Counted from the stretch's first letter, positions 25,752 to 50,419 are shown. The stretch is 64,000 bases of DNA from Spirobacillus cienkowskii (GCF_037081835.1 NZ_CP146516.1:124001-188000), one strand, 5' to 3'. The notes: generated from the letters alone by a model not told the origin. A program made the numbers and translations.

Positions 25752-26372
25752 ATGCAAACTGAAATGCCAATAATGCAAAGTCAATTAGAACAAAAATATC
25801 CAATGGTTGATGGTGTTTCTGGTATGCTTGTTCCTCTAAAAAGTGAAAACATTACACTGGCAAATACCGTTATTTCCTTAGGTGTTTATAACGAATTTGT
25901 GACAAGTTCAGCCGCCCAGAGTTATAATTCTTTTGGTCTCGGTTTTTCAATTGGAATGCATCATAAAATTAGAGATATTTGGTTAGGGGGCATAGAGTTA
26001 CGTTGGTCGGATTGGATGTCTAAAAGTACAGCGCGGTCTGATTTGAGTCCTCTTTCAATTTACTCTAAAATTCAAGTTTATATTCCTACTGATTTTATTT
26101 TAAATCAAAATTTTAGGAGTATTGTAAAGCCCTATGCAACAGCTGGTTTGGGTTACACTTTTTTTTATAATAGGAGATCTGTGCTTGATATTCAAACTAA
26201 CAACACGTTAGGACAATTTTCGATGACATATGGCGCTGGTTTAACTATTAAATTTCAAAACTTATTTTCTATAAAACCTTCGTTTGAGTATTGGAGAGGT
26301 ATTCAGACATCTGAGTTTAAAGCGGGGATTTATAGGTTGGAGATATTATTTGGAGATGTGGAAAATATTTAG
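25752..26372 (+). CDS. outer-membrane beta-barrel-like protein
   Basis: A 206-residue protein built of alternating aromatic/small residue strands typical of small outer-membrane barrels: 'FGLGFSIGMHHKIRD', 'GIELRWSDWM', 'VKPYATAGLGYTFFY', 'SMTYGAGLTIKFQ', ending in a hydrophobic-aromatic strand. It probably folds as an 8-stranded barrel. Odd points: no recognisable signal peptide follows the ATG and no SD precedes it, so the true N-terminus may be missing or shifted. Only about 50 bases separate it from rnhA on the other strand. It overlaps the next gene by 17 bases and heads a seven-gene operon running to 31093. Confidence 0.7.
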   Translation: MQTEMPIMQSQLEQKYPMVDGVSGMLVPLKSENITLANTVISLGVYNEFVTSSAAQSYNSFGLGFSIGMHHKIRDIWLGGIELRWSDWMSKSTARSDLSPLSIYSKIQVYIPTDFILNQNFRSIVKPYATAGLGYTFFYNRRSVLDIQTNNTLGQFSMTYGAGLTIKFQNLFSIKPSFEYWRGIQTSEFKAGIYRLEILFGDVENI

Positions 26373-26910
26373 TTTAATTTTATTTTTAATATTTAATTCA
26401 GGTAAAGCGTTTTCGCAAAATTTAAACTTGCTCAATCCTATTACAAAGGCAATACCTCCAGGAAAAGTCGTTTTTACTAATAAATCCGTTTTTAGTTGCG
26501 GAGAAAAAAACGGATTTTCTGTTTATACATCCCTTGATATACAAGCAATTTTAGCAATTTCAAATATGTTATCGTCCGATCCTGTTACCTTAGAAACTAA
26601 TTGGAATGATAGTGAATCAATGCAAAAACTAATAAATACAGGAAAGCTTACAGAGCAACAAATATTGACTTATCCCAAAGATGTTCAAAGAATAATTTTT
26701 TATTGCTTAACTTGGGATGAAAGTTTTAGATTAAAAATTTTTAGTATCCCAAACGAAGCATTAGAAAATATTTCTGCCAATGTAATGGCTCAAAAACCAT
26801 GGAAAGTGCTAGAAAAAGATGTAGCAGAAAAAATTAATAATTTTTCACAAGAAACTATTAGGGATTTTGTTTATTTAATTTTAAGAATCAAATGTTTACT
26901 ACTCAATTAA
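26356..26910 (+). CDS. exported protein of unknown function, apparently frameshifted near its 3' end
   Basis: From the ATG at 26356 the protein has a signal peptide ('WKIFSLILFLIFNSGKAFSQ', cleavage after SQ or nearby). The mature part is unrecognised, with two Cys ('FSCGEKNG', 'IFYCLTWD') and helical segments. The frame ends at 26910 in a non-characteristic tail. The +1 frame is open from 26885 and encodes a protein-like segment (...GGFEKNPTLWSGAFSWKVP...) ending in a TGA that overlaps the ATG of the next gene (ATGA at 26992-26995). This makes a one-base frameshift (real or an error) around 26884-26908 very likely. The intact product would be about 28 residues longer than the frame shown. 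Confidence 0.65.
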   Translation: MWKIFSLILFLIFNSGKAFSQNLNLLNPITKAIPPGKVVFTNKSVFSCGEKNGFSVYTSLDIQAILAISNMLSSDPVTLETNWNDSESMQKLINTGKLTEQQILTYPKDVQRIIFYCLTWDESFRLKIFSIPNEALENISANVMAQKPWKVLEKDVAEKINNFSQETIRDFVYLILRIKCLLLN

Positions 26911-26995
26911 AGGAGGATTTGAAAAAAATCCAACTTTATGGTCTGGGGCATTTTCATGGAAAGTTCCTTTTAAAGGAAATAAAAATATAAAATGA
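26885..26995 (+). pseudogene. displaced 3' end of the exported-protein gene (+1 frame)
   Basis: Open +1 frame immediately after a stop at 26882-26884. It encodes about 36 residues of normal composition with Trp and Gly-rich strands, and ends with TGA inside an ATGA overlap with the GNAT gene, as do other junctions of this operon. It has no start of its own. Confidence 0.6.
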
Positions 26996-27588
26996 ATAAA
27001 GTAAATTTAGAAAATCCAGATTGTAAACAAATAGTCTGTATTAGTAAAGGTAATTTATATTTAAGTGAAATTAGTGACAATGTAGCGCCTATATTTATTT
27101 CTAATAATTTATTAGAAATAAGTTATTTAGAAAATTTGTTATCTTATGATAAAATATCAGAAACTGTATATTTAATTTGTAAGAATGATATTTATGCACC
27201 TAGTTTAAATTTATTAAAAAAATTTTATGATAACTTAAATCTTGAACAAAACAGCTCTTGTTTTTTAGGAGCTATTTTTGTTTTTCAAAATAAAAACTTA
27301 ATCGCATTTTTAAATTTTAATGTTACATACGAAGATTGCGAAATAGAGTATACTTGTGTAAGCAAAGATTTTAAGAAAAAAGGTGTTGCTAGCTTAATGT
27401 TATTTTATCTAGATGATTTTTGTAAAAAAATAGCAAATAATAAAGTTAATAAAATTTTACTCGAAGTTGGAGAAAATAATTTGCCAGCAATTCATCTTTA
27501 CAAAAAATTTAACTTTAATAAAGTTAGTGAGAGAAAAAAATATTATAAAAATAGTGAAAATGCTTTAATTTTGGAGAAAAAAATTTGA
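26992..27588 (+). CDS. GNAT-family N-acetyltransferase (RimI-like)
   Basis: A 198-residue protein with a C-terminal GNAT domain. 'CVSKDFKKKGVASLMLFYLDDF' is the acetyl-CoA pyrophosphate-binding motif A (R/QxxGxG/A variant, here KKKGVA), and 'LLEVGENNLPAIHLYKKFNF' is motif B as in RimI-type protein N-terminal acetyltransferases. The N-terminal about 80 residues are unrecognised. Acceptor unknown. It is translationally coupled on both sides: the start overlaps the previous (shifted) stop, and the stop overlaps the TTG start of the heptosyltransferase gene. Position in an envelope operon would also allow a sugar acetyltransferase role. Confidence 0.85.
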   Translation: MNKVNLENPDCKQIVCISKGNLYLSEISDNVAPIFISNNLLEISYLENLLSYDKISETVYLICKNDIYAPSLNLLKKFYDNLNLEQNSSCFLGAIFVFQNKNLIAFLNFNVTYEDCEIEYTCVSKDFKKKGVASLMLFYLDDFCKKIANNKVNKILLEVGENNLPAIHLYKKFNFNKVSERKKYYKNSENALILEKKI

Positions 27589-28658
27589 AAGTTGGAATTC
27601 TTCATACAGCATTTATAGGTGATATTGTATTACTTGGTTTGTTAATAGAGGCTCTTTACACAGATAAACATGAAATATATTTAATAATTAAAAAAGAATC
27701 ATTATTACTGTATAATAATGATTATAGAATAAAAAAATGTATAGCTATAGATAAAAAATCTGGTTTTAAAAAAATTAAATCAATTTTTTTAATTTCTCAA
27801 CAAATTAAATCTTTGTCTCTTGATGTAATTTTAGTGCCGCATAAATCTGTTACAACAGCTTTATGCGTGCTTTTTGCAAAAGTTCCTAAAAGTATTGGTT
27901 TTAATGATAGTGCTTTAAAATTTGTATATCGCGAACTTATGCCTTTTAATAAAAGCAAACATGAATGTTTACGGTGTTTAGATTTAGCACCAAGGTGGCT
28001 TTTATCTGAAGCTTCTTATCAAATTGCATTAAAAATTTCTAGACCTATTTTAATTCCTAATAAAAGTTTGTCTATTTTTAATGAAAAAAATCCGGATTTT
28101 TTTAGCAAAGAAAGTTTTTATTTTATTGTGAATCCTGGTTCTGCATGGGCAACTAAAAAGTATCCAGCTTTAAATTTTGCAAAAGCAATTTTTTTAATAT
28201 TAAGTAACTCACAAAATTTAACTTGTATTTTAGCTGGATCGCGTAATGATTACAATGATATTAAATGTATATTAGATTATTTTGATGCATACCCACATTT
28301 AAAAAATAAAATTATTGATGTTAGCAAGTATTTGCCATTAGACGAATTTGTAACTTTGGTGTCTAAAGCGAGTTTTGTAATTGCAAATGACTCGAGTCCG
28401 GTGCATATTGCTTCTGCTTCTAATGTCCCTGTTGTTGTTATTTTTGGACCAACTAGTTGGACTTTTGGTTTTTATCCGACTTCAGAAAAAAGCACGATTC
28501 TAGTTTACCGCGATGCAGCAGGAAATACGCTTTCTTGCCATCCTTGTACAAATCATGGTTCAAGTGTATGCCCTGAAAAGCATTTTAAATGTATGCGTGA
28601 ATTGTCTCCAGAAATTATTTTAGACTCTGTTCAGAAGATGTTGCCACATTTTTTTTAA
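27585..28658 (+). CDS. glycosyltransferase family 9 (heptosyltransferase II-like)
   Basis: A 357-residue GT9 protein of the ADP-heptose:LPS heptosyltransferase type. 'FIGDIVLLGLLIEAL' at the N-terminus is the acceptor-domain entry. 'VNPGSAWATKKYP' is the conserved nucleotide-sugar region (GSAW..K.WP). 'VIANDSSPVHIASASNVPVVVIFGPTSW' contains the donor-binding D-S/T-x-x-x-H. It should add heptose to the LPS inner core at the inner face of the cytoplasmic membrane. TTG start at 27585 with GGAG 8 bases upstream, overlapping the previous stop. Its operon includes a type III polyketide synthase, which is unusual for LPS core genes. Confidence 0.88.
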   Translation: MKVGILHTAFIGDIVLLGLLIEALYTDKHEIYLIIKKESLLLYNNDYRIKKCIAIDKKSGFKKIKSIFLISQQIKSLSLDVILVPHKSVTTALCVLFAKVPKSIGFNDSALKFVYRELMPFNKSKHECLRCLDLAPRWLLSEASYQIALKISRPILIPNKSLSIFNEKNPDFFSKESFYFIVNPGSAWATKKYPALNFAKAIFLILSNSQNLTCILAGSRNDYNDIKCILDYFDAYPHLKNKIIDVSKYLPLDEFVTLVSKASFVIANDSSPVHIASASNVPVVVIFGPTSWTFGFYPTSEKSTILVYRDAAGNTLSCHPCTNHGSSVCPEKHFKCMRELSPEIILDSVQKMLPHFF

Positions 28659-28675
28659 TAGGATAGGGAGTGTTT

Positions 28676-29860
28676 ATGATTCCTGTTTTAGGTAACTTCA
28701 TTGTAAAAAGACCACAGTTTGAAGTTGCACAGCACAATGCGTTAAACTGGATCTCGCAAGCTCATGCTCTTGCAAAATATAATGAAAATTTAAATTCTCC
28801 TGATTCTAAATCATTAGAAAAAATAAATTACTTAATGAATAATTATGTTAATCGTTTTGCTTGTGGCCCCGAAAAAATTTCTAATCGAGGCACATGTATT
28901 CCTGATTTTCTCCATACAAATTGGGATGAAATGCAATTGTTTAATTTAAAAAATAATAATTGCAGTCCAACTATTAAAGAAAAAATGCTTTTTTTTAACG
29001 AAATAGTTGGAAAAGTTTTTGAGGACTTATACTCTGAAGTAAATGTGCCACCAAAAAATATAATTCATGTAACCTGTACAGGCTACTCTTCACCTTCAGC
29101 AGCGCAAATTTTAGTTTCCAAAATGGGATGGGGCGATTTTACAAAAATTTATCATGCATACCATATGGGTTGTTACGCCGCTCTTCCTACGTTGCGAGTG
29201 GCGCAAGGTTACTTATTACAAGATAATTTAGAAAACGCGCTTACTAGCAATATTAAAGGTCGAGTGGATATTGTTCATACAGAACTATGTACGTTGCATT
29301 TTAATCCTTATTTGCATGATCCTGGTCAGTTTGTAGTGCAAAGTTTATTTGCAGATGGATTTATTTATTATTCATTGTTTGAAAAGAATGCATTTTATCG
29401 TTATGGATTGAATAAAGGTTTAGAAATTTTAGCAACTCATGAGATGATTATTTCACACACTTTAGATGCAATGTCTTGGGATTTGTCTGAAAGTGGTTTT
29501 TATATGAGTTTATCTGGTAAAGTTCCTGCTGTTATTGCAGAAAATATTTTTAATTTTATTGAAAAATTATTTTCGAAAACAGAATATTCTTATGCTGAAA
29601 TTAAGGATAATGCATTATATGCTGTGCATCCAGGTGGCCCTAAAATAATTAAATTGATAAAAGATGTGTTAGATTTATCAGATAAAAATATTGAATTTAG
29701 TGAATTGATACTTAAAAATTATGGTAATATGTCTTCGGCAACGTTACCGCATATTTGGAATGAAATAATTAACTCAAACGTACAGGCTGGTACTTTAGTA
29801 GTGAGTTTAGCATTTGGCCCTGGTTTAACTGTGGTTGGTTCGTTAATGAGAATTGTATGA
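28676..29860 (+). CDS. type III polyketide synthase (chalcone/stilbene-synthase-like)
   Basis: A 394-residue thiolase-fold protein with the type III PKS triad: Cys in 'HMGCYAALPTLRVA' (about residue 165), His in 'AVHPGGPKI' (about 317), and Asn in 'LKNYGNMSSAT' (about 349). 'VTCTGYSSPSA' is the N-terminal-half signature. These enzymes iteratively condense malonyl-CoA onto a starter acyl-CoA; bacterial examples make alkylresorcinols/alkylpyrones (phenolic lipids) or naphthols. The start is the ATG at 28676 with AGGGAG 5 bases upstream; an in-frame GTG at 28670 overlaps the SD. It is coupled by ATGA to a membrane protein and then a methyltransferase, as in phenolic-lipid operons such as srsAB. 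Starter and chain length cannot be read from sequence. Confidence 0.9.
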   Translation: MIPVLGNFIVKRPQFEVAQHNALNWISQAHALAKYNENLNSPDSKSLEKINYLMNNYVNRFACGPEKISNRGTCIPDFLHTNWDEMQLFNLKNNNCSPTIKEKMLFFNEIVGKVFEDLYSEVNVPPKNIIHVTCTGYSSPSAAQILVSKMGWGDFTKIYHAYHMGCYAALPTLRVAQGYLLQDNLENALTSNIKGRVDIVHTELCTLHFNPYLHDPGQFVVQSLFADGFIYYSLFEKNAFYRYGLNKGLEILATHEMIISHTLDAMSWDLSESGFYMSLSGKVPAVIAENIFNFIEKLFSKTEYSYAEIKDNALYAVHPGGPKIIKLIKDVLDLSDKNIEFSELILKNYGNMSSATLPHIWNEIINSNVQAGTLVVSLAFGPGLTVVGSLMRIV

Positions 29861-30375
29861 ATTTGCTTGAGATTTTTTTTATTTTGATAATTTTGTTTCA
29901 CGCTTTTTTAATGCTAGTGGATGAGTTTTATTGTCATAAAAAAAGATGGCTTCCTAAGTGGGAAAGAATTGGACATCCCGTTGATACAGCGTGTTTTTTG
30001 CTTTGTTATATATTGGTAATTTTTTTTCCAATGAATAAAGCTGTATTTTTTGTTTTTTTAATAAATGCAGTTTTTTCGTGTTTTTTAATAGTTAAAGATG
30101 AAGCAGTGCATTTAAAATATGCAAATAGTTTTGAACAATATTTGCATGCTCTTTTGTTTGTTTTGCATCCCGTTATTTTATGTATTTTGTTTTTTTCTTG
30201 GTCTTTATTTGCTAAAACAGAGTTTTTATTTTTTAATTACTTTGATTTTAAGTTATTAAAATATGTAATTTTAACACAATTTATATTGGCTATAATATTT
30301 TTTTGGTATCAAATAATATATTGGAATTTTGTGATTAAGGATAATGTTTATGATGCAAAAAGAAATAGTAAATAA
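29857..30375 (+). CDS. polytopic membrane protein of the type III PKS operon, unknown
   Basis: A 172-residue protein with about five hydrophobic helices. I do not recognise the family. Charged/His clusters recur at helix ends: 'DEFYCHKKRWLPKWERIGHPVDT', 'KDEAVHLKYA', 'FEQYLHALLFVLHP'. Several His, Glu and Asp residues lying at membrane faces would suit metal binding (for example a membrane hydroxylase/desaturase) or lipid-substrate handling, but this is speculation. Its ATG overlaps the polyketide synthase stop (ATGA), and its 3' end overlaps the methyltransferase start by 26 bases, so the three are almost certainly expressed together. Confidence 0.78.
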   Translation: MNLLEIFFILIILFHAFLMLVDEFYCHKKRWLPKWERIGHPVDTACFLLCYILVIFFPMNKAVFFVFLINAVFSCFLIVKDEAVHLKYANSFEQYLHALLFVLHPVILCILFFSWSLFAKTEFLFFNYFDFKLLKYVILTQFILAIIFFWYQIIYWNFVIKDNVYDAKRNSK

Positions 30376-31093
30376 TGAGATTTACAAAAGTTTAGGTGAT
30401 AAGTGGTATACAGGAAACGACTATGTCGCCTTGTTAAGGGCAGAATCAAAAACAAGAAACCCTTGGATTTTAAATAATATTTATAAGAATAACTTTGTTG
30501 ATTCTAAGGTTTTGGATATTGGCTGTGGCGGTGGTTTACTTACTAATTATTTATCAAAGTTTAATTTTAATGTGACCGGAATTGATAATCAAGAAAATGC
30601 TTTGCATATTGCAAAAAAATATGATGAAAGTGGCTCTGTAACTTATAAAATAGCAGATGCTCATCAGTTGCCTTATGATAATGAAACGTTTGATGTCGTT
30701 TGTTCCTTAGATCTTTTTGAACACGTTGATGATTATACAAAAGTGATCAAAGAAGGTGTTAGAGTTTTAAAAAAAAATGGACTATTTTTCTTTCATACTT
30801 TTAACAGAAATTTGTTATCTTGGTTATTTGTTATTAAAGGTATGGAATGTTTTGTTAACAATACTCCTAAAAATTTGCATGTCTATCAATTTTTTATTAA
30901 ACCTAAAGAAATTATAAAAAATTTTTCTATTAATGATTGTTATTGTGTTGAAATAAAAGGTTTAACGCCAAATATATTTTCGAGTTCATTTGTTAATTTA
31001 ATTAAAAATGGTGAGGTTGACGAAAATTTTGATTTTTCTATCTCTCGAAATTTATTTACAGGCTATATAGGGTACGTTAAAAAAATAAGTTAA
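30350..31093 (+). CDS. SAM-dependent methyltransferase (UbiG-like)
   Basis: A class I methyltransferase of about 247 residues. SAM-binding motif I is 'VLDIGCGGGLLT', followed by acidic 'GIDNQ', motif 'IADAHQLPYDNETFDVV' and 'EHVDD'. The C-terminal region 'HTFNRNLLSWLF' closely follows the UbiG/COQ3 pattern (S..NR...SW). UbiG O-methylates polyprenyl catechols. Next to a type III PKS, an O-methylation of a phenolic-lipid ring is the natural inference, as for SrsB/BpsB-type partners, though those belong to a different methyltransferase type. I chose the ATG at 30350 with AAGGA 8 bases before; ATG at 30344 is too close to the SD. It is the last gene of the operon, converging on a chemoreceptor. 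Confidence 0.88.
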   Translation: MMQKEIVNNEIYKSLGDKWYTGNDYVALLRAESKTRNPWILNNIYKNNFVDSKVLDIGCGGGLLTNYLSKFNFNVTGIDNQENALHIAKKYDESGSVTYKIADAHQLPYDNETFDVVCSLDLFEHVDDYTKVIKEGVRVLKKNGLFFFHTFNRNLLSWLFVIKGMECFVNNTPKNLHVYQFFIKPKEIIKNFSINDCYCVEIKGLTPNIFSSSFVNLIKNGEVDENFDFSISRNLFTGYIGYVKKIS

Positions 31094-31099
31094 TGAGTT

Positions 31100-32602
31100 T
31101 TATTTTTTTCCTAAAACTAGCCGTTCAATTTCGCTTGTGGTTTTTGAGAGTTTTTTGCCTTGATCAACCAGTTCGTTAGAAGATTGCGCTGTTTCGTTCA
31201 CAGAGATTTGGTTTTTTTGCGTAGCGCGGTCAATTTCAGACATCGCTGTTGTAATTTGCCGCACCCCAATGTCTTGTTCTTGGGTAGCAGCAGAAATTTG
31301 TTCAATCACAGACACCATATTGATAATGTCTTCGGATATTTTAACAAAAGAATCTTGCGCGACTGTGGTAACGGATTTGCCTTCATTGATGCGATCTTTT
31401 GTGACCAGCAAAATTTTGTTCACTTCTTCTTGGCTTTTGGTAATGAGTTCCTGAATTTCGTGAGCAGATTTACCACTAATTTTAGCAAGATTTCCCACCT
31501 CTTCGGCCACCACGGCAAAACCTTTGCCGTATTCTCCTGCACGGGCAGACTCAATGGATGCATTCAATGATAACAGCTCTGTTTTAGAGACAATATCGTT
31601 AATCACAGAGGTTTTTGCATGAATTTGAGTGATAATTTGAGCGATATTTTGCAATTGATTGTTAGATTCTTGAATGGTTTCCATGCTGTTCACCAGTTTG
31701 TGCATGGTTTCTTGACTGTTTTCAGCTTTGCTTGCAGCATTTTTTGCAACATTTGTAGATTCTTTTGCATTTTCTGAGGTTTTGTTCACCATACTGGTGA
31801 TTTCGTTAATGGCTGCTGTGGTTTCGTGCACAGAGGCGGCTTGTTCGGTAACCGATTCTGAAAGCGATTGAGAACTATTTTTTAAAGTTTGCGAGATTTT
31901 CATTGTATTCTCGCCTTGGTGCTTTAATTCTGTAATAGCAGCTTTTATTGTCGCTGTAATGGAAAGAATCACAAGTGTAATAACTATTGCAATAATAATT
32001 GAAACAAGCAACACAGCGCTCATGGTCCAATTGGTAATGGTTGTTAAGCTTTCTCCAGCTTGTGTTGATTTTACTGCGCCTTCTGAATTATATTTTGACT
32101 CATTTGCAATCGCTTCTAGCAATTTAAATAATGCAGGACGACCCACAGTATTGTAGTGATTGAGGGCTTCGAGGCCTTCGCCTTTTTTCACGTGTTCGAG
32201 TTCTTCCTCATATGTTTTCATATATACTTCGTAGGCTGCCATTGTGGCATCGTAAAAAGGTTTTTCTCCTGGTGCCATGAGACCATTTTCACTATAGCCT
32301 TTGAGCTCTTTTTCTAAAGTGGCTTTAAAATTATTGAGATCTTCAAGGTTTTTGGGAAGTCTCTCTTGTTGTTTGGCAAGGGTATCTGCAATCACAAGCA
32401 CCGCTCTTCGAGATAAGTTGCCAAGGTATAAATTAATTTTGCCAAATGCTTCGATACTTGGCATCCATTCTTTTGCTGTAACCTGAGAATACACTTGTGT
32501 TTTATTAATCATGCTGATTGCATAGATACAGCAAAATAAAATAAGGGCTAGCAATATAGAAATGGACGTAAAAATTTTAAAAGCAAGACTTTTGTTTTCC
32601 AT
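31100..32602 (-). CDS. methyl-accepting chemotaxis protein (4HB-type sensor)
   Basis: A 500-residue receptor: membrane helix 1 (about residues 8-30), a helical periplasmic sensor of about 160 residues resembling a four-helix bundle, membrane helix 2 (about 190-218), then the cytoplasmic signalling coiled coil. The hairpin tip is '[35 protein letters not shown]', where the CheA/CheW-contacting core is well conserved. Only about 35 residues separate helix 2 from the adaptation segment '[16 protein letters not shown]', so a full HAMP domain seems absent. No CheR-binding pentapeptide is seen at the C-terminus. Close paralogue of the next receptor. The ligand is unknown. Confidence 0.93.
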
Positions 32603-32710
32603 TTAAAATAACCCCAAAAATAGAATAAATTATTCTTATATATCTATAATCGGAGCTTATTTGTTGTAAATTAAATAAATATTTGGATAATAAGTTTTTT
32701 AAAGATAATA

Positions 32711-34216
32711 TTACGTTAACTTACCTAGTATTAACAGCTCAATTTGACTTGTAGTTTTGGAGAGTTTTTCACCTTGGTTTACAAGTTCGTTAGAAGATTG
32801 CGCTGTTTCGTTCACAGAGATTTGGTTTTTTTGGGTAGCGCGGTCAATTTCAGACATCGCTGTTGTAATTTGCCGCACCCCGATGTCCTGCTCTTGGGTA
32901 GCAGCCGAAATTTGTTCAATCACAGACACCATATTGATAATGTCTTCAGAAATTTTAACAAAAGATTCTTGGGCTTCGTTGGTAACCGATTTGCCTTCAT
33001 TGATGCGATCTTTGGTTACAAGCAAAATTTTGTTCACTTCTTCTTGGCTTTTGGTAATGAGTTCTTGAATTTCGTGGGCAGATTTACCACTAATTTTAGC
33101 AAGATTTCCCACTTCTTCGGCCACTACGGCAAAGCCTTTGCCGTATTCGCCTGCACGGGCAGACTCAATGGATGCATTTAATGATAACAGTTCTGTTTTA
33201 GAGACAATATCGTTAATCACCGAGGTTTTAGCATGAATTTGATTGATAATTTGGGCAATATTTTGCAATTGGCTGTTTGATTCTTGAATGGTTTCCATGC
33301 TGTTCACCAGTTTATTCATGGTGTCTTGGCTATTTTCTGCTTTGCTTGCAGCACTTTTAGCAACATTTGTAGATTCTTTGGCATTTTCTGAGGTTTTGTT
33401 CACCATACTGGTGATTTCGTTAATAGCGGCTGTGGTTTCGTGCACAGATGCGGCTTGCTGCGCCGCAGAATCAGAAAGCGTTTGAGAGCTTTTTTTAAGG
33501 GTTTGTGAAATATTCATGGTACTCTCGCCTTGCTGTTTGAGTTCAATAATGGCTTTTTTAATTGTTGCAGTAATCGATAAAATAAGTGAAAAAATTCCTA
33601 AAGCAACTACAGCGGAACTGATTAGCACTATTGTCATTGTCCAATTTGTAATGGTTGTGAGGTTTGCGCCTTTTGAGGCAGAATTTTTAGCACCTTGAGA
33701 ATTAAATTGTGATTGCGCATCAATTTTTTCTGTTAAGTTAAAAATTAAATAGCGGCCTTCGTTATTATAATGATTTAGAGATTCTAACCCCTTGCCGCTT
33801 TTAACCAAATCCATTTCTATATCATAAGATTTGATGTATTCGTTGTAAGATTTTAATGTGGATTCATAGAGTTCTTCTTCGCCGGGTGCAATTTTGCCTG
33901 AGTCTTTATAGTCTTTGAGCTCTTTTTCCAAATTCGCTTTAAAACTATTGAGTTCGGCAATGGCTTTTTCTATTTTTTCGGTGTCTTTTGCAATGGCGCT
34001 GGCAATAGTAAGAATAGAGCGCCTTGATAGGTTGCCTACATTTAAATTAATACGGCTAAACGCTTCGATGCTTGGCAGCCATTGCTCAGATGTGTCTTTG
34101 GCGTATTCTTGGGTTTTGTTAATCATAATTATTGCATAAAAACAAGAAAACAAAATAAATATTAATAAAATTGAAATTGAAGAAAAAATTTTAAAAGCAA
34201 GGCTTTTGTTTTTCAA
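32711..34216 (-). CDS. methyl-accepting chemotaxis protein (paralogue of the 31.1 kb receptor)
   Basis: A 501-residue receptor with the same architecture as its neighbour: anchor, helical periplasmic domain, second membrane helix, and signalling coiled coil with tip '[19 protein letters not shown]'. The cytoplasmic parts of the two are almost identical in protein and very similar in DNA, whereas the periplasmic halves share pattern but many substitutions ('[24 protein letters not shown]' region conserved). This points to tandem duplication followed by sensor divergence. A full HAMP domain is again missing. It is transcribed toward the neighbour with a 108-base gap, so each may have its own promoter. 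Confidence 0.93.
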
Positions 34217-39521: not shown

Positions 39522-42500
39522 ATGGTACAGAGTATTCCATTATCTCCATTTCAGAGCGTGTTTTACTTTGAATGGAAATTAAATCCTCAAAGAACAGATT
39601 ATCACATGGTGATCGATCAAACTATTGAAGGAGAAATTAATTACAAAAAACTTAATAATTGTTTAAAAAAAATGATAAAAGATATTTTTATTTTTAATGC
39701 ACATGTTTTTGAGATAAATGAAAAATTTTACTGGAAAAAAAATAATGAAGTATTAGATTTAGAATATTTTGATAAAAATATTAACAGTGAAATTAAAATT
39801 TTTTTGCAAAGAGAATTTGACTTAGAAAGTGGTCCATTGTATAGATATGGATTATTTAAAATTGATGAAAATAAGTATAGACTAATTTATATTTTACATC
39901 ATGCAATTATTGATGGTGCATCTGCAGAGCAATTTTATACTGAAGTTTCGAAATATTATAATTTAAATAATTACCGATATCCAATTTCTATTGATGATCA
40001 AAAAAATAAAATAATAGAATTTTCTTTAAAATTAGAAAATGAAATTAAAAAATACTATAACATATGTTATGATTTTTGGATGAGTAAAATAGAAAATTAT
40101 GACGTATTAAACACAGAATTTCTAATAGAAAATATTGATTTTAATAAAAATGATAGAGTAGAATTAACAAATCAAAAAATTTTTGGAATTAATGAAATCT
40201 ATTTTTCTATTACAGGAGAATATTTTGACAAATTGTCTGCGATAAGAAAAAAATTTGCAATTACAAATTATCTGTTTTCAAAAATTGTGTATGCCATTAC
40301 TTTGTATAAATATACAAATCAAAATAATTTTATAATTGCATATCCAATTTCTATTAAAGAGGGAATTGAATTATTTTATGGAGCTAACGTAAATATAAAT
40401 TTTATTCCATTTAATATTAATGGTGAAAAAACTATTAAAGAATTGATTTTAGAAACAAAGATTTTTTTAAAATCACTAAAAAACGAAGAATATAGATTAA
40501 ACTATTTTCCAATGTATAACGTATTTTCAAAAAAGAGTAATAAATTTAGTTCTATTGGTTTTTCAAGCGCGTTTTTGCAGCAAACATCATTTAATTTTAA
40601 TAATTTAAATGTGCAGCCAACAAAAAATTCAAATATTGCACTTACCCATGATTTTGCCTTTGAAGTTCAGCAATTTTCTAATGAAATTAAATTTAGAATT
40701 AATTATAAAAATAAAAAAATTTCTAAACAATTAATAGAAAATTTATGTAAAAATTATAAAAATATTTTTAATCAAATAATTGATTTTATGTTTAATAAAA
40801 GAGATGAATTATGTAAGTTAAAAATAAACCAGTTGCATCTATTGGATAAATTTGAAGAAAAAAAAGTAATTTATGATTGGAATAAAAAATATGAAAAAAA
40901 ATTTAAATATAAAAAACCTATAGAATATTTAGAAAATCATGCAGTTAAATTTCCAAAAAATAATGCATTGCATTTTAATGGTAAAAATATGAGCTACTCT
41001 GAACTTAATAATAAGGCAAATATTTTATCCAATTATCTAATTGATAAATTTAATGTTCATAAAGGTGATTATGTTGGATTGCTAATGGAGAGAAGTGAGC
41101 ATTTAATAATTGCGATTTTATCTGTATTAAAATCTGGAGCGGTTTATGTACCAATTGATCCAGAATATCCATTTGATAGAATAAAATTTATTATTGATGA
41201 TACAAAATTAAATATACTATTAATGAATAATAATATAAGAATAACAAAAAAAAATAAAAATAAAATTAACTTTAATTTGCTAAATATTTTAATTTTTAAT
41301 GATGAATTTTTAGATAAAAATAATATAAATAAATATAGAAATAATCCTAATATTAATGCTGGAAAAAAAGATATTTCATATTTAATTTATACGTCAGGAA
41401 CAACTGGGAAGCCAAAAGGAGTTTTAATTAAAAATGAAAGTGTATCAAATTTAATTGAATTTCAAAAAAATAATTTAAAAAATGAATTTTTTAATAAAAA
41501 AATAAAAGTCTTATTTTTTTCGAGTTTTGTATTTGATGCTCATGTTTGGGAATTGATCAGTGGACTGTTATTGGGAAATCAATTGTACCTTGTCGATGAA
41601 GAAACTCGACAAGATTATAATTTATTAGCTAAATTTATTGATGATAATGGCATAAATTTAGCTGTACTTCCACCGGTTATACTCAATAAAGAAAGGCCAT
41701 TAAACTTAGATGTTTTGTTTTTTGCAGGTGATAAAACAAATAGCTTAATAGTTAAAGAGTATTTAAAGGAAAATAAAGTTATTTATAATGCATATGGGCC
41801 AACAGAAAATACTGTTATGTGTTTTATGCATAAGTATACTAATTTTTTAGAAGCTAACTGTATTGGTAGCTTGGTGTATAATCATAAGGCATATATTTTA
41901 GATGATAGCTTGCAACCATTACCAGATGGAGCAATAGGAGAGTTGTATCTTACAGGCGTTGGACTCTGTGCTGGTTATTTAAATAGAGACAGTTTAAACC
42001 AAGTAAAATTTCTTAAAAATCCATTTCAGAATCAAAATGAAATTAAACATAATATAAATTCTAAAATTTATAAAACGGGAGATTTGGTTAGAAGATTATC
42101 AAATGGAAAAATTGAATACATTGGGAGAAACGATTTTCAAGTTAAAATTAGTGGAGTTAGAATAGAACTAGAAGAAATTGAAAATACAATTTTAAGTATA
42201 AAAGGAATAAAAAAAGTTTATATACTTGCTAAAGAATTAGATACATCAAGTTTAAATTACAATAAAACAATTATTTGCTATTATGTATCTGATAAATCTA
42301 TTAAAGATAACCAAATAATAGAATATTTACAAAAAGTATTACCACATTTTATGATTCCAAAATTTTATATAAACTTAGATAAATTTCCATTAAATAATAA
42401 TGGAAAAATAGATATTAAATTACTGCCTAATCCAGAAATTAAAGAAAGTTTAAATATTGTTACACCCAGAAATAGTATAGAACAAAAATTATGCTCTATT

Positions 42501-45500
42501 TGGGCTGAAATTTTGGGATTAAATATAAGTTTTATTGGAATCCATTCTGATTTTTTTAGTTTGGGCGGAGATAGCATTAAAGCAATTCAAGCAGTAAGCA
42601 GAATTAGAAGTAGTTATAAATTAACATTAAATGTTAAAGACATTCTTAAATTAAAAACTATAGAAAATATTTCAAAATATATTGAATTGCTATTAAACAA
42701 ACAATCTAGTTTAAATTATTTGTCTAATATAGAAGCTGCATCTGGTGAATATCCGTTATTGCCAATTCAGAAATGGTTTTTTGCTAATAACTTTGCTAAT
42801 TTTGAACATTGGAATCATTATTTTTTAATCAAAACAAGTATACTTGATCTAGAAAATTTAAAACAGTCTATTAATAAGTTAATTAATATTCACGATACTT
42901 TTAAAATAAGTTTTAAAAAAAATAACAATAATTGGATTCAGGTTTATAAAGACAAAAAAATTGATACTGACTTAAAAATATTAAATATTAAAGATTTAAT
43001 TAGCTGTGACGAATCTATAGATTTTAATAATGAGCTATTAAATGTTTTAAAAGATTGGCAAAATAGTTTTAACTTAGAGCATGGGCCACTTTATTCTTTT
43101 GGATATATTTATGGGTTTAATAATAATACAGCTAGAATATTTGTTGCAGTTCATCATTTATTAATAGATACTATTAGTTGGAAAATAATACAAAACGATT
43201 TGTTTAATTTATATTATAATAATGAATTATTATTAAAAAGAACGAGTTATTTAAAATGGGCAGAAAAAATTAAAAATTATTCATCAGAAAATTTTAACGA
43301 AAAAAAATATTGGGATGATGTGTTAAATAATTTTAAATTAATAAATAATTATTTAATGAGTTATTTATTAATAAATAAAAGTAAAGATATAAATTATTGT
43401 ACTGTTGAATTTGAATTATCTGAAACACGTTTAATTCTCGATAAAGTAAATCCTATTTTTAATACTACAGTTCAAGATCTTTTAATTTCGGTAATGGTTT
43501 CTGCCTTGTATAATATTACACATTCTAAAGAGCATTATATTATGATGGAGGGAAATGGACGTAACGAAGTAGATTCTACTTTTGACATACTTGATACAAT
43601 TGGTTGGTTTTCTAACATGTTTCCTGTAAAATTAGAAGTCAAAAAAACTTTTGCAGAGCAAATTTGTTATGTAAAAGATTATTTTAAAAAAGTGCCCAAT
43701 AATGGTATTGGATATGGTGCATTTTATTCTTATTCTAGTAAATTGTCCCCTAAAATATTATTTAATTATTTTGGTATTATTGAGCAAAATAAAGAAATTT
43801 TTAATAGTCAAGATAACAAATGGAGTCTTGTTCAAGAGAATAGTGGTCGCTCATTTTATTCGTCTAAATTTAAAGATTTTTATATATGTTGCAATTCATT
43901 AATATTTAATCAAAAATTATATGTTTATTTTGAAGGTCAAATTATAAAAAATTCTTTAAATAATTTTGGTGTGTTATTTAAAAAATATTTAATTGACTCT
44001 ATTAATGAAATTGCAAAATATGATAGAAAATATTTAACTTTAAGCGATGTTGATTTTTTTATATCGCAAAATTATTTAAATAACATACAATTTAAAAATG
44101 AAATTGATTATATATTACCAACAACTTATTTGCAAAGTGGGTTGATTTATCATTCGCTCAATAAACAATATGATGATTGTGCATATTTTAATCAAATTTC
44201 GTTTAATTATGAAGGAAATTTAAATTTAGAACAACTAAAAATTGCATGGGAAAATACTGCTAAAAAACATGAAATTTTTAGATTAAGATTTGCGTGGGAC
44301 GAAGAAATTATTCAAATTATCGATAAGAATACAAAACTAGATTGGCGCTATATTGATATCAGCAAGAAAAATATACTACAAAAAAATCAATTTATAAAAA
44401 ATTATAAAACCAAAGATCGTTTAGAATATTTTAATTTAAAAAATGGAAAATTAATTAGAATTTGTATTATTAAACAATATAAAAATTTGTACACTTGTTT
44501 ATTTAGTGCGCATCATTCTGCAATAGATGGATGGAGTATTGCTATTTTATTGAGTGAGGTGCACGATTTATACAATAAATGCGAGAAAATAATAAAAAAT
44601 AAATATGATACAGTATATAGCGATACATTTAAGCTTATTAGTAAAGAAATGGATAAAAATATTGATTATTGGAATAATTGCATTAAAACTATGGAGAATA
44701 ATCTTGATTTATCGTGCTTATTTTGTAATAGTGCAAAAAATAATAAATTATATTTTGCTAATTATAGACATATTAGAACACAAAAAGAAAAAATTTTAAA
44801 TATTGATAACTCTAATTTTGATAATATTAAATCTTTATCTGTAAGATATTCCGTGACAATTAATGCGATTGTTTTTTTTGCTTTTTGTAAACTTTTAAGT
44901 GTATATGGAAATGCAGAAAAAATGGTTATAGGAACTACTGTGTCAGGAAGAAACTTGCCTATTTTTGGAGTAGAAAATGTAGTTGGTCTACTGATTAATA
45001 CACTTCCTTTTTATGTAAATTTTGCAAAAAAAAGTAATACTAAAATTATCGAAATAATTAAATTATTACAAGATAAAATTAATGAAATGAATGAAAAAAG
45101 TCATGCTGATTTTTTTAAAATTTATAATGGAGAAAATAGATTATTTGATGTTATTTTTGTTTATGAAAATTATCCAATGCAATTTAGTAACAAAATAGAT
45201 GAATCTTTATCTATATGTTATGATGAAGTTTATGAGACATTAGATTATCCTTTATCTGCTATAGTTTATAAATTAGAAAATGGAATACAGATTAAAATTA
45301 AGTATGCAGGTGAGCTATTTGAAGATCTAATCATAGATGAGATGTTGGAATATTTTGTAGGAGTTTTGAATAAAGTAGTTATTTACCCCGAAGAAGTGTT
45401 TAAAAAAGTTTCATTTATCAATACTCAGCAAGAAAATTTGGTGAGAAATTTAAATATTTCTACTGATATTGATTTTACTAAGTGCAGCAGTATTATAGAT

Positions 45501-47876
45501 TTATTTGAGAACTGTGTTATAAATTATATTAATAATAATGCTTTAATTTTTAAAGATAAAATAATAAATTATTTTGAATTAAATTGTAAATCCAATCAGC
45601 TTGCAAATTATATCAAAATTAATTTTAATATTTCTAAAAGTCATTTTATTGCTATTATTCAAAATAGAAGTGATTTAATGATAATATCTATTTTAGCAAT
45701 ATTAAAGCTTGGTAAAGCATATTTACCAATAAATCCAAATACGCCAAAAGATCGTATTGATTATATATTAAAGGATGCTGATCCTATTATAGTTTTAATT
45801 GATTCTTATAATATTAAAGAATTTAATAATTGTTATAATAATTTTGTAAATGTGAATAATGTTATAGATAAAATTTCTGAGTATTCTTCAGAAAATATTA
45901 GCACCAGTGTAGCAATAAATGATTTGGCATATTTACTTTATACTTCTGGAACTACAGGCGTACCTAAAGGTGTTGCAATGCCTCATGAAAGTTGCCTTTT
46001 AAGAATTAATAAAATGGCTTCTATTAATAAAATGTCATCAAAAGATGTTTATCTTTTTAAAACAAATTATATTTTTGATGTTTCTTTTTCCGATATTTTT
46101 ACAACGCTAACTTCTGGAGCCTCTTTGGTTGTTACAGAAAACCATTTTGATATTTCCGAAATTGAATTTTTGATAAAAAAACATTTGGTAAATATTTGTC
46201 ATTTTGTACCATCTCAATTTAAGGTTTTTGCGGAGTTGGTTAATTTATTTGATTTAAAGTCAATTAATAGAATAGTTTTAAGTGGTGAGCCATTAGATAT
46301 AAGATTAATTAATAAATATTTGGATAGTATTAGATTTATAAATTATTATGGTCCAACCGAAACAGGAGAGGTTACATATAAAGAATTTTTAATAAATAAT
46401 TTTAATCATGATTTATATTTTGGGCGTATATTTATTGGCAAATTATTTGGATATTTAAAAGCTTATGTTTTGGATAAAAATTTACATTTATTGCCGATTA
46501 ATACAGTTGGTGAATTGTGTATTTCTGGTTCAAGTTTAGCAAATTATTATTGGAAAAATGAAGATTTTACTAAACAATGTTTTATTGACAATCCATTTAT
46601 TCCTATACAAAATGATGGTAAATATTTATTTCGTAAGATGTACAAAACAGGGGATCTTGTAAGATGGTTGCCAAATGGTGAATTAGAATATTTTGGTAGA
46701 ATTGATTTTCAAGTAAAGTTAAATGGATTTAGAGTAGAGTTGCAAGAGATAGAAAATGTAATAAGTTCTTACTCTGGAATAAAAAACTCAGTTGTGATAC
46801 TTTCTGAAAATAATAAATTTTTGGTTGCATATTATTTATCTGATTTATTGATTGATCACAATTTTTTACGGAATTATGTTCAAGCAAAACTTCCTACATA
46901 TATGATGCCACAGTATTTTTTGCAAATTGATGCACTGCCTTTAACAGCAAACGGCAAACTAGATGTCGCTGCTTTACCAAAAATTGATAAACATAATACT
47001 GTTAAATTTGAACTTCCAAGTAATGATATTGAAATTAAATTATTAGATTATTGGAGTGAGATATTAAATATTTCTAAAAGTAAAATTAGTATAAATTCTA
47101 GCTTTTTTGATTTGGGAGGAAATAGTTTATTTGCAATTAAGCTTTTAAATAAAATTAATAATAATTTAAGTTTTGATATTAAGCTTTCAGATATTTTTGT
47201 GAGTAAAAATATTAAAAATATTGCATTAAAAATTACGCATCAATCAAAAAATTACACACCAATTGTAGAATTAAACAAAAAATCTTCAAATCCTATCATG
47301 TTTATGGTGCATCCCGCACGCTCTGGCTGTGAAGTTTATGCGAAATTAGCAGAACATTTGCAAGATCATTTTTATTGTTTAGGAGTGGATTCTTATAATC
47401 TTAATAATGATGATAAAATTACAAGTTTAAATCATCTTTCTGATTATTATCTTAAACATATAGAAACATATATGCTAAAATGTAAGCAGCAAAATTATTA
47501 TTTTTTGGGATGGTCGTTGGGTGGTTTTATTTGTCTTGAGATTGCATCGCTTTTAGAAATTAAGGGGCATAGAAATATAAATTTATTTTTACTTGATTCA
47601 TTTTATTTTGACGATTATATGAATAAAAATAAAATGAATCTCGAAACATTTTTAAAATATGGTAAACAGGATTTTAATTTTTTAGGATTTGATAATAGTT
47701 ATATTGATAAAATTTGTACCATATATGATATTGAAGATGGGTTTTTATCGCAGAAAATTTCTTGTAAGCTGAAATTTTCTAATGTTACTTTATTAAAGGC
47801 TTTAAAATTTAGGAAAAGTGGTAATTTAAAAAATGTAAATAATTATTTAAATTATTCTATTCTTTTAAAAGAATAA
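39522..47876 (+). CDS. two-module nonribosomal peptide synthetase (C-A-T-E-C-A-T-TE)
   Basis: A 2784-residue NRPS. Domains by motif: C1 (HHAIIDG, about residue 126); A1 (YTSGTTGKPKG about 623, AYGPTE, YKTGDLVR, NGKID about 962); T1 (LGGDSI, Ser about 1017); epimerisation domain (HHLLIDTISW about 1211, EGNGRNE, TIGWFSNMFPV, FNYFG); C2 (HHSAIDGWS about 1664); A2 (YTSGTTGVPKG about 2138, YYGPTE); T2 (LGGNSL about 2531); and thioesterase (GWSLGG about 2664). It should join two residues, the first converted to D-form. Specificity residues read by alignment to GrsA: A1 D-A-W-V-F-A-A-V-M-K (hydrophobic/aromatic-like), A2 D-V-S-H-V-S-Y-E-V-K (no confident match). The N-terminal C domain implies an acyl starter or an upstream donor. 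The stop truncates the TE before its His. The SD is AGGAAG. No MbtH or PPTase gene nearby. Confidence 0.93.
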   Translation: MVQSIPLSPFQSVFYFEWKLNPQRTDYHMVIDQTIEGEINYKKLNNCLKKMIKDIFIFNAHVFEINEKFYWKKNNEVLDLEYFDKNINSEIKIFLQREFDLESGPLYRYGLFKIDENKYRLIYILHHAIIDGASAEQFYTEVSKYYNLNNYRYPISIDDQKNKIIEFSLKLENEIKKYYNICYDFWMSKIENYDVLNTEFLIENIDFNKNDRVELTNQKIFGINEIYFSITGEYFDKLSAIRKKFAITNYLFSKIVYAITLYKYTNQNNFIIAYPISIKEGIELFYGANVNINFIPFNINGEKTIKELILETKIFLKSLKNEEYRLNYFPMYNVFSKKSNKFSSIGFSSAFLQQTSFNFNNLNVQPTKNSNIALTHDFAFEVQQFSNEIKFRINYKNKKISKQLIENLCKNYKNIFNQIIDFMFNKRDELCKLKINQLHLLDKFEEKKVIYDWNKKYEKKFKYKKPIEYLENHAVKFPKNNALHFNGKNMSYSELNNKANILSNYLIDKFNVHKGDYVGLLMERSEHLIIAILSVLKSGAVYVPIDPEYPFDRIKFIIDDTKLNILLMNNNIRITKKNKNKINFNLLNILIFNDEFLDKNNINKYRNNPNINAGKKDISYLIYTSGTTGKPKGVLIKNESVSNLIEFQKNNLKNEFFNKKIKVLFFSSFVFDAHVWELISGLLLGNQLYLVDEETRQDYNLLAKFIDDNGINLAVLPPVILNKERPLNLDVLFFAGDKTNSLIVKEYLKENKVIYNAYGPTENTVMCFMHKYTNFLEANCIGSLVYNHKAYILDDSLQPLPDGAIGELYLTGVGLCAGYLNRDSLNQVKFLKNPFQNQNEIKHNINSKIYKTGDLVRRLSNGKIEYIGRNDFQVKISGVRIELEEIENTILSIKGIKKVYILAKELDTSSLNYNKTIICYYVSDKSIKDNQIIEYLQKVLPHFMIPKFYINLDKFPLNNNGKIDIKLLPNPEIKESLNIVTPRNSIEQKLCSIWAEILGLNISFIGIHSDFFSLGGDSIKAIQAVSRIRSSYKLTLNVKDILKLKTIENISKYIELLLNKQSSLNYLSNIEAASGEYPLLPIQKWFFANNFANFEHWNHYFLIKTSILDLENLKQSINKLINIHDTFKISFKKNNNNWIQVYKDKKIDTDLKILNIKDLISCDESIDFNNELLNVLKDWQNSFNLEHGPLYSFGYIYGFNNNTARIFVAVHHLLIDTISWKIIQNDLFNLYYNNELLLKRTSYLKWAEKIKNYSSENFNEKKYWDDVLNNFKLINNYLMSYLLINKSKDINYCTVEFELSETRLILDKVNPIFNTTVQDLLISVMVSALYNITHSKEHYIMMEGNGRNEVDSTFDILDTIGWFSNMFPVKLEVKKTFAEQICYVKDYFKKVPNNGIGYGAFYSYSSKLSPKILFNYFGIIEQNKEIFNSQDNKWSLVQENSGRSFYSSKFKDFYICCNSLIFNQKLYVYFEGQIIKNSLNNFGVLFKKYLIDSINEIAKYDRKYLTLSDVDFFISQNYLNNIQFKNEIDYILPTTYLQSGLIYHSLNKQYDDCAYFNQISFNYEGNLNLEQLKIAWENTAKKHEIFRLRFAWDEEIIQIIDKNTKLDWRYIDISKKNILQKNQFIKNYKTKDRLEYFNLKNGKLIRICIIKQYKNLYTCLFSAHHSAIDGWSIAILLSEVHDLYNKCEKIIKNKYDTVYSDTFKLISKEMDKNIDYWNNCIKTMENNLDLSCLFCNSAKNNKLYFANYRHIRTQKEKILNIDNSNFDNIKSLSVRYSVTINAIVFFAFCKLLSVYGNAEKMVIGTTVSGRNLPIFGVENVVGLLINTLPFYVNFAKKSNTKIIEIIKLLQDKINEMNEKSHADFFKIYNGENRLFDVIFVYENYPMQFSNKIDESLSICYDEVYETLDYPLSAIVYKLENGIQIKIKYAGELFEDLIIDEMLEYFVGVLNKVVIYPEEVFKKVSFINTQQENLVRNLNISTDIDFTKCSSIIDLFENCVINYINNNALIFKDKIINYFELNCKSNQLANYIKINFNISKSHFIAIIQNRSDLMIISILAILKLGKAYLPINPNTPKDRIDYILKDADPIIVLIDSYNIKEFNNCYNNFVNVNNVIDKISEYSSENISTSVAINDLAYLLYTSGTTGVPKGVAMPHESCLLRINKMASINKMSSKDVYLFKTNYIFDVSFSDIFTTLTSGASLVVTENHFDISEIEFLIKKHLVNICHFVPSQFKVFAELVNLFDLKSINRIVLSGEPLDIRLINKYLDSIRFINYYGPTETGEVTYKEFLINNFNHDLYFGRIFIGKLFGYLKAYVLDKNLHLLPINTVGELCISGSSLANYYWKNEDFTKQCFIDNPFIPIQNDGKYLFRKMYKTGDLVRWLPNGELEYFGRIDFQVKLNGFRVELQEIENVISSYSGIKNSVVILSENNKFLVAYYLSDLLIDHNFLRNYVQAKLPTYMMPQYFLQIDALPLTANGKLDVAALPKIDKHNTVKFELPSNDIEIKLLDYWSEILNISKSKISINSSFFDLGGNSLFAIKLLNKINNNLSFDIKLSDIFVSKNIKNIALKITHQSKNYTPIVELNKKSSNPIMFMVHPARSGCEVYAKLAEHLQDHFYCLGVDSYNLNNDDKITSLNHLSDYYLKHIETYMLKCKQQNYYFLGWSLGGFICLEIASLLEIKGHRNINLFLLDSFYFDDYMNKNKMNLETFLKYGKQDFNFLGFDNSYIDKICTIYDIEDGFLSQKISCKLKFSNVTLLKALKFRKSGNLKNVNNYLNYSILLKE

Positions 47877-48139: not shown

Positions 48140-50419
48140 ATGAGTTTAAAAGAAGAAGCTTTGCACTATCATCGTAAAGGGCGTAAAGGAAAAATTGAAA
48201 CAGGTATAACCAAAGAGTGTAAAAATCAAAAAGATATTACCTTAGCATATTCTCCTGGCGTTGCTGAACCTTGCAAAGAAATCGCAAGAGATCCTTCTTT
48301 GGTTTATGAGTACACCGCTAAAGGTAATTTAGTCGCGGTTGTTACAAATGGAACGGCGGTATTGGGTCTTGGAGCGATTGGTCCATTAGCAGGAAAACCT
48401 GTTATGGAAGGTAAAGCAGTGCTTTTTAAAATGTTTGCAGATATTGATTGTTACGATATTGAATTGAATGCTAAAACTCCAGAAGAAATAATTAGTGCAT
48501 GTAAAATGTTAGAACCGACTTTTGGTGGCATTAATTTAGAAGACATTAAAGCGCCTGAATGTTTTGAAGTCGAAGAACGATTGCGAGAAGAGTTAGATAT
48601 TCCTGTTTTTCATGATGATCAGCATGGTACGGCAATTGTAAGCGGTGCGGCTTTATTAAATGCATGCGAAATTACAAAACGCAAAATTTCTGATGTGAAA
48701 TGTGTTGTGAATGGTGCAGGTGCTGCAGCTATTGCTTGTGCGCAAATGTATATAAACTTAGGGCTCAAAAAGGAAAATTTAATTTTATGCGATTCTAAGG
48801 GTGTTGTTTATAAAGGCCGCACAGAAGGAATGAATAAATATAAGGCTCGCTTTGAAAACGACACTAAAAAAAGAACTCTTGCCGAAGCAATCAAAGGGGT
48901 CGATTTTTTTTGTGGTTTAAGTGTTGCAGGGGCTGTTACTAAAGAAATGGTTAAGTCCATGGCTAAAGACCCTATTATATTTGCTATGGCAAATCCTGAC
49001 CCAGAAATTTCTCCGGCTGATATTAAGTCAGTGCGAAGTGATGCAATAATTGCCACAGGAAGATCAGATTATCCCAATCAAGTGAACAATGTTCTTGGTT
49101 ACCCTTATATCTTTAGAGGAGCCATGGACGTTTTATCAACTCGTATCAACGAAGATATGAAAATGGCGGCTGTGCATGCCATAGCGGCTTTAGCAAAAGA
49201 AGATATTCCAGAGAGTGTCACGAAGTCTTATGCAAGCAGTACATTGCAAGGTTTTGGCAGAGAATACTTAATTCCTAAACCTTTTGATCCAAGGCTTTTA
49301 TTGCGTGTGGCGCCCGCTGTGGCAAAAGCTGCGCTTGCAACAAAAGTGGCAAGAAAAAACATCGATATTGAGCATTATGTTGATTTGTTGGAGTCTCGTT
49401 TGGGTGTCCTGCAATCAGTAACTCGAAAAATTAAAAGAAGTGTTGTTGTGGCAAATAGAACAAGCGGCAAAAAACTAAGAGTGGTGTTGCCAGAAGGTGC
49501 TAGCCTAAAAATTTTAAAAGCTGCAGAAATTGTTTGTGCCGAAGAAATTTGTGAGCCAATTTTAATTGGTGATATTCAAAAAATTAGAAGTTTAATTCAA
49601 GATGCAAAGTTAGATAAACTTTTAACTCAGGTTGAAATTATTGACCCATCAGAAGATAAAAGATCAGAAAAATATGCTTCATTGTTGTTAGAAAAAAGAG
49701 CGCGAAAAGGTGTGACACGTATGGGTGCATATGAACTTGTTACGGGTGATCATCATTACTTTGCAACAATGATGGTTGAAACAGGTGATGCCGATGCGTT
49801 TTGTTCTGGAGTGCATCATAATTATGGAGATGCAATAAGACCTGCCTTACAAATAATTGGTACCCAAACAGATAAAGTTCTTGCTGGTATTTATATGTTG
49901 CTGTGGAAAGAAAGAAGCATATTTGTTGCTGATACAACAGTGAATATTAACTCCAATGCAGAACAATTGGCGCAAATCGCAATTCAAACGCATGACATGG
50001 CTAAAATATATTTAAGTGAGCAGCCAAGAGTGGCTATGCTAAGTTTTAGTAATTTTGGCAGTACCAAGCATCCAGAGTCTGATAAAGTGTGTAAGGCTAC
50101 AGGTATTGTAAAAAAACTGCGCCCAGACATAGAAATTGATGGAGAAATGCAAGCCGATTTTGCGCTTTCATCAGAATTATTAGAACATTCTTATGGTTTT
50201 TCAACTCTTAAAGGTCCTGCAAATGTTTTGATATTTCCTGATTTGACGTCAGGAAATATTGCTTACAAGCTTTTAGGAAAATTAGGAGGTGCAACATCAA
50301 TAGGTCCAATTCTGACTGGAATGAAAAAACCTGTTAATGTTTTAGCGCGAAATTCGGACATCGATGAAATTGTTAATTTAATTACATTTACAGTTCATAG
50401 GGTACAAAATGGAATGTAA
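48140..50419 (+). CDS. maeB: NADP-type malic enzyme with phosphotransacetylase-like domain
   Basis: A 759-residue multidomain malic enzyme. The N-terminal malic domain (about 1-430) has '[13 protein letters not shown]', 'VLGLGAIGP', '[12 protein letters not shown]' and the NAD(P)-binding '[13 protein letters not shown]'. The C-terminal domain (about 435-759) is phosphotransacetylase-like ('RVVLPEGAS', 'LSFSNFGS', '[11 protein letters not shown]'). It decarboxylates malate to pyruvate, yielding NADPH; the PTA-like domain is regulatory in characterised MaeB proteins (acetyl-CoA sensing). The SD GAGG is 8 bases before the ATG. Its stop abuts the stop of the convergent PepQ gene with no spacer. 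Confidence 0.95.

Follow-up and report, generated by a model that had tools for sequence, protein, structure and literature searches.

Seven co-directional genes of Spirobacillus cienkowskii, a red bacterium and pathogen of Daphnia, form an operon that is most aptly seen as a variant of the known type III polyketide synthase (PKS) pathways for phenolic lipids and polyketide quinones, equipped with an undescribed membrane protein. Its catalytic core consists of the type III PKS, this membrane protein and a UbiG-like methyltransferase. We assign a probability of about 45% to the reading that these three enzymes constitute a methylated phenolic-lipid pathway working like the srs, pkq and hid clusters, in which the membrane protein, putatively a metal-dependent hydroxylase, takes the place of the flavin oxidoreductase. 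The operon lies in a window of 64,000 nt (the whole stretch of DNA analyzed here), which is part of a 2.81-Mb single-contig genome estimated to be 97% complete.

The first-pass annotation of this window had described seven overlapping or nearly touching genes, and the junctions read from the sequence bear this out on the + strand between rnhA and a set of chemotaxis-receptor genes (Table 1). The barrel and exported-protein genes overlap by 17 bases (with the exported protein starting at ATG 26356, as read from the sequence), the GNAT and GT9 genes by four (TTGA), the PKS and membrane-protein genes by four (ATGA), and the membrane-protein and methyltransferase genes by ~26. GT9 and PKS are separated by a 17-base gap, or by 11 bases if the PKS starts at GTG 28670; the start is better placed at ATG 28676. 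Pfam and NCBIfam also agree with the gene families named in that annotation, namely the barrel (marginally), GNAT, GT9, type III PKS and UbiG-family methyltransferase. A separate promoter between GT9 and PKS, which the annotation had named as a finding that would speak against a joint operon, did not appear as a promoter-like site in a + strand scan that itself rises barely above shuffled sequence (41 sites in the region versus 34.6 expected). The strongest promoter-like site of the region (11/12) lies inside the barrel gene at 25899–25928.

Table 1 Genes of the PKS operon in the Spirobacillus cienkowskii window.
Feature	Position	Strand	Basis or remark
Outer-membrane beta-barrel-like protein, 206 aa	25752..26372	+	PF13505 at cut-off
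Exported protein, no family match	26356..26910	+	Signal-peptide-like N terminus read from sequence
GNAT acetyltransferase, RimI-like	26992..27588	+	PF00583, 50.2 bits
GT9 glycosyltransferase, HepII-like, GT9 Asp13 present	27585..28658	+	PF01075
Type III polyketide synthase	28676..29860	+	PF02797; Cys-His-Asn triad
Polytopic membrane protein, 172 aa, ~five helices	29857..30375	+	New family
UbiG-like SAM-dependent O-methyltransferase	30350..31093	+	TIGR01983

The central enzyme of the core scores 83.9 against Chal_sti_synt_C (PF02797; cut-off 27) and 23.6 against PF00195, just under the cut-off of 27. Its catalytic triad, Cys168-His320-Asn353 (numbered from GTG 28670), is invariant in 17 aligned homologues, and so is Trp270 (same numbering), which occupies the position of Trp281 in ArsB and Gly284 in ArsC and is aligned to the G284W tryptophan of 3vs9. 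The closest PDB entries, 3vs9 and 3vs8, represent Azotobacter ArsC with and without this G284W substitution (PMC6274091). They matched the single sequence with an E-value of 4.8e-57 (next best 2.7e-23) and the PKS profile with 9.8e-94 (next 1.3e-48). In ArsB and ArsC mutants, Trp at this position leads to resorcinols and Gly to pyrones (PMC6274091; PMC9927152), a product rule tested by mutation in the Azotobacter enzymes only; PkqA and the quinone PKS of Streptomyces MNU77 carry the resorcinol-type Trp as well (PMC9927152). On the basis of Trp270 and the complete triad, we therefore predict an alkylresorcinol-type cyclization, and the operon product is likely to be a resorcinol-type lipid.

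The methyltransferase gene is the only one in the genome that exceeds the UbiG cut-off (TIGR01983; 145.2 bits versus 102.95). Its product can be aligned with full-length E. coli UbiG (4kdc) through the segment FFHTFNRNLLSWLFVIKGMECFVNNTPKNLHVYQFFIKP, which we take to be UbiG's membrane-binding insert. A search of the 97%-complete genome returned no ubiquinone-type UbiA (4-hydroxybenzoate prenyltransferase), the UbiA family being represented by heme O synthase and MenA only. The menA gene is located beside menB and menC, a UbiE/MenG gene is also present, and the respiratory quinone is, judged from these genes, probably menaquinone. With menaquinone genes but no ubiquinone-type UbiA in this genome, the UbiG-like enzyme must therefore use a different substrate; the product of the neighboring PKS offers the simplest candidate and is probably what it acts on. 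The suggestion of the first-pass annotation that the operon yields a methylated polyketide lipid is supported to the extent that PKS and methyltransferase are predicted to make a methylated alkylresorcinol-type lipid, and methylation of the operon's lipid appears reasonably probable.

Two relatives show quinone-related neighborhoods. A UbiA-family prenyltransferase-like gene (L045, 10141–11031) lies just upstream of the PKS-methyltransferase pair in G021, and G009, where no methyltransferase is part of the PKS operon, has a UbiG-family gene separated by a few genes from nuoCD, nuoE and nuoF. Both arrangements hint at a quinone role, each as a single case, and a ubiquinone pathway is possible in G009.

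The membrane protein, which the first-pass annotation had passed over as a bystander, turned out to be the most informative part of the operon. It has no Pfam, NCBIfam or PDB match. Thirteen homologues share D22, E23, H27, R30, E36, G39, H40, D43 and T44 in the loop after helix 1, as well as K80, E82, H85, E93, H97, F101 and H104 after helix 3, so that four Glu and five His are invariant across two motifs. Hydropathy and loop charges place both motifs on the same, probably cytoplasmic, face of the membrane. Each half contains two Glu-His pairs, a hint of internal duplication for which the profile comparison is weak (P ~0.05). A single-sequence structure model built with no alignment was poor (pLDDT 65), and a fold search with it gave nothing usable; ferritin-like matches with E > 5 were disregarded.

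Within the class, the protein is found in 17 of 58 genomes, two of which belong to the window's own species. No convincing match appeared in ~325 genomes of other phyla (best E 0.003, partial), and none in viral contigs. Every match in another species adjoins a PKS gene or, in G013, lies two genes away. Because of its position in the cluster and its residue pattern, we infer that this protein is the best candidate for the ring-hydroxylation step, as a metal-dependent oxygenase; its assignment as a hydroxylase is nevertheless a tentative one. The shared residues provide a precise list for mutation, and the protein would serve as a clean marker for such clusters even if their product is only a structural lipid.

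Mapping the PKS regions of 18 relatives for gene order provided the conserved-synteny check proposed along with the first-pass annotation: the order is kept in five well-assembled congeners (G002–G006) and partly across the Silvanigrellaceae. In the five congener species, it persists at roughly 35–60% protein identity while genes outside the cluster change, which argues that the cluster is more than chance; as exceptions, the methyltransferase of G006 and the GT9 of G004, the latter standing by itself, are encoded elsewhere in their genomes. Silvanigrellaceae of other genera (G007, G009, G011 and G012) show the order GNAT-GT9-PKS-membrane protein, and a member of another family in the order (G013) has GT9-PKS and, at a distance of two genes, the membrane-protein gene. 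Beyond this order, PKS, membrane protein and methyltransferase stand together as a trio, in that sequence, in four species of the class (G014, G049, G052 and G053, the last with two loci), with GT9 not linked at any of these loci (L043, L047, L048, L050 and L052). G054 combines PKS and membrane protein. Two patterns count against our reading of the core: in genera g2 and g4, PKS and membrane protein occur with no methyltransferase in the operon, the only UbiG-family gene being more distant and encoded at another site, and G021 carries its PKS-methyltransferase pair with no membrane protein. In the family members G008 and G010, neither PKS, membrane protein nor methyltransferase was found at a convincing score, nor a close GT9 orthologue, and gene absence there is uncertain at 92% and 83% completeness, respectively. 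Three congeners possess a second, distant type III PKS with 32–37% identity (L051, 8105–9343; L118, 8318–9472; G002:C4:262850); in the regions read in G003 and G004, it is adjoined by neither a membrane protein nor a methyltransferase.

The surroundings of the operon differ in part between species. Directly downstream are tandem methyl-accepting chemotaxis genes on the − strand (31100–34216; also L033, 10020–17855) that encode ~500 aa each with nearly identical signaling halves; G006 has five such ORFs, four of which match at ~70% identity. About 8 kb downstream of the operon, a two-module nonribosomal peptide synthetase of 2784 aa (39522–47876, + strand) comprises three condensation, two AMP-binding, two carrier and one thioesterase domain. 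The regions retrieved from G004 and G005 show no such gene, and in both the distance between the PKS operon and the maeB-type gene (48140–50419 in the window) is shorter.

Upstream of the core, the barrel protein scores exactly at the Pfam cut-off for OMP_b-brl (PF13505; 28.7/28.7). Conserved in both genus g1 and G007, it shares 46–51% identity with its congeners. No signal peptide was found for it in the host genus, and upstream translation leaves no room for a hidden one; relatives in genus g4 do carry a signal peptide. The exported protein has no Pfam or NCBIfam match, and its frame ends early (26910) owing to an additional base near 26886 that L032, a second assembly of the species, does not have. 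In L032, the reading frame stays open and shares an ATGA overlap with the start of the GNAT gene. Since menA of the window's assembly (L087) shows the same kind of frame break and is open in G076, also another assembly of the species, assembly indels are the likely cause in both genes. Such single-base frame breaks make the quality of homopolymers or small indels suspect in this long-read genome. The GNAT scores 50.2 against PF00583 (cut-off 20.7) and 71.5 against RimI (TIGR01575), under the cut-off of 86.4.

The GT9 gene deserves separate attention, as the first-pass annotation had taken its joining to the PKS for one system of lipopolysaccharide (LPS) core and lipid synthesis. It scores 69.8 against Glyco_transf_9 (PF01075; cut-off 22) and 83.3 bits against HepII (TIGR02195), under the curated cut-off of 134.6; among the six GT9 places in the genome, it is the most HepII-like of five tested. 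ADP-heptose would be supplied by a probable HldE encoded in the genome (E 5.8e-86, yet 288 bits, below the cut-off of 345). The close linkage of GT9 and PKS is present at this locus and conserved in the order Silvanigrellales, the only group in which we found the two joined; a literature search for the combination of PKS and heptosyltransferase returned one paper with few occurrences of either term, and the word "polyketide" is absent from the main text of the 2025 genome paper of Spirobacillus cienkowskii. The trees of GT9 and PKS are compatible in topology, with poor support for the deep forks. Judged from these trees, the two genes are vertically co-inherited within the order; as G008 and G010 also lack both, they may be coupled to some degree. 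The association is old and stable within the order; it is not a required part of the core.

How far this coupling extends bears on the idea that all seven genes form one pathway, in which GT9 would glycosylate the polyketide, possibly with heptose, or the LPS core would carry the polyketide. GT9 adjoins the PKS in nine Silvanigrellaceae species and G013, the two trees are compatible, GT9 is retained in G004 even though detached, and its orthologue is absent together with the PKS from G008 and G010. The latter absences, however, come from genomes of limited completeness, GT9 has left the operon in G004, and the trio loci of four class genomes have no linked GT9, a finding that the first-pass annotation had itself named as refuting its reading. 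We therefore consider such decoration quite improbable, and the claim of a single LPS-plus-lipid system is not supported. A purely incidental neighborhood, kept by slow rearrangement among genes that share no pathway, would account for the departure of GT9 and methyltransferase from the operon in one congener each and for the partly conserved housekeeping flanks rnhA and maeB. It is very improbable, and unlikely for the trio in particular, given that gene junctions overlap, that other families of the class have the trio between different flanking genes, and that every membrane-protein match lies near a PKS.

Alternatives that keep the PKS at the center concern its product. Pyrones are a frequent in vitro product of bacterial type III PKSs like this one, and Bacillus BpsA/BpsB reportedly involve methylation of a pyrone 4-hydroxyl. 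An alkylpyrone methyl ether formed in the same manner would require only the PKS-methyltransferase pair, but we give it little probability: every homologue carries Trp at the ArsB Trp281 position, and both the membrane protein and the UbiG type of the methyltransferase would be left unexplained. A structural phenolic lipid is a more serious contender, even though we consider it rather unlikely. Alkylresorcinols, O-methylated or not, would then enter the membrane as in Azotobacter cysts, with the membrane protein acting as transporter, flippase or anchor, in keeping with the PKS being nearest to ArsC in the PDB and with the envelope genes upstream in the operon. However, no ArsA/ArsD-like fatty acid synthase partner was found among the seven operon genes, and the membrane protein combines strict PKS linkage with invariant Glu, His and Asp motifs such as a metal enzyme would be expected to have. 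Moreover, UbiG-type enzymes normally methylate a ring hydroxyl adjacent to another oxygen.

According to the three-enzyme reading, the type III PKS would elongate a long-chain acyl starter by malonyl units, with ring closure through aldol condensation yielding an alkylresorcinol, a step we infer from homology and the conserved Trp. The 172-aa membrane protein would then act as an oxygenase that depends on a metal, possibly a di-iron center, and hydroxylates the resorcinol ring; this is the weakest step. The UbiG-like enzyme would O-methylate the resulting hydroxyl at the membrane surface, as suggested by its family and the absent ubiquinone pathway. The product may be a methoxy-hydroquinone or quinone lipid that works either in redox transport, as a second carrier next to menaquinone, or as a lipid of the envelope; that it is a quinone is somewhat unlikely. 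GT9, GNAT, exported protein and barrel would represent a Silvanigrellales addition, probably tailoring or placing envelope components under the same control, and these upstream four genes are not needed for the core pathway. In its most far-reaching form, a new family of membrane-bound metal-dependent aromatic hydroxylases, with the four Glu and five His, would cooperate with the PKS and the UbiG-like enzyme in making a ubiquinone-like polyketide quinone in the Gram-negative Oligoflexia, through a second quinone pathway that was assembled independently of the one for menaquinone; taken as a whole, this combination is rather unlikely. If correct, it would add a new enzyme family for the hydroxylation step, give the UbiG-like genes of the class a substrate other than ubiquinone, and add a Gram-negative class, one with a Daphnia pathogen among its members, to the range of non-prenylated, fatty-acid-derived quinones. 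As respiratory carriers, polyketide quinones have been described for Actinobacteria.

The operon can be compared with several known systems. Its GT9 shares family, Asp13 and a match to structure 1psw with WaaF (LPS heptosyltransferase II), but scores 83 bits where HepII requires 134.6. The methyltransferase resembles UbiG in exceeding the TIGR01983 cut-off and in keeping the membrane-binding segment, whereas its host has menaquinone genes only and no ubiquinone-type UbiA. Relative to the Azotobacter arsABCD operon, the PKS has its closest PDB match in ArsC together with the Trp of ArsB, and the operon contains a methyltransferase but neither a type I fatty acid synthase nor a phosphopantetheinyl transferase. 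The cyanobacterial hidABC (hierridin) cluster and the planctomycetal methyltransferase-oxidoreductase-PKS operons likewise unite a PKS with tailoring enzymes in three genes for methylated alkylresorcinols (PMC10896814), but differ in gene order, third enzyme and host class. With srsABC of Streptomyces and pkqABC of Mycobacterium smegmatis, the operon has in common a type III PKS and a methyltransferase in one operon and the resorcinol-type Trp that PkqA and the MNU77 PKS are reported to carry (PMC9927152); it differs in its membrane protein of no known family and in the UbiG type of its methyltransferase. In the srs, pkq and hid clusters, the resorcinol is the substrate of the third enzyme, an oxidoreductase or hydroxylase (PMC10896814; PMC9927152). 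As no flavin-dependent oxidoreductase domain was found in the seven operon genes with Pfam and NCBIfam, the operon should not be filed as an srs, pkq or hid cluster, though it may well work like one.
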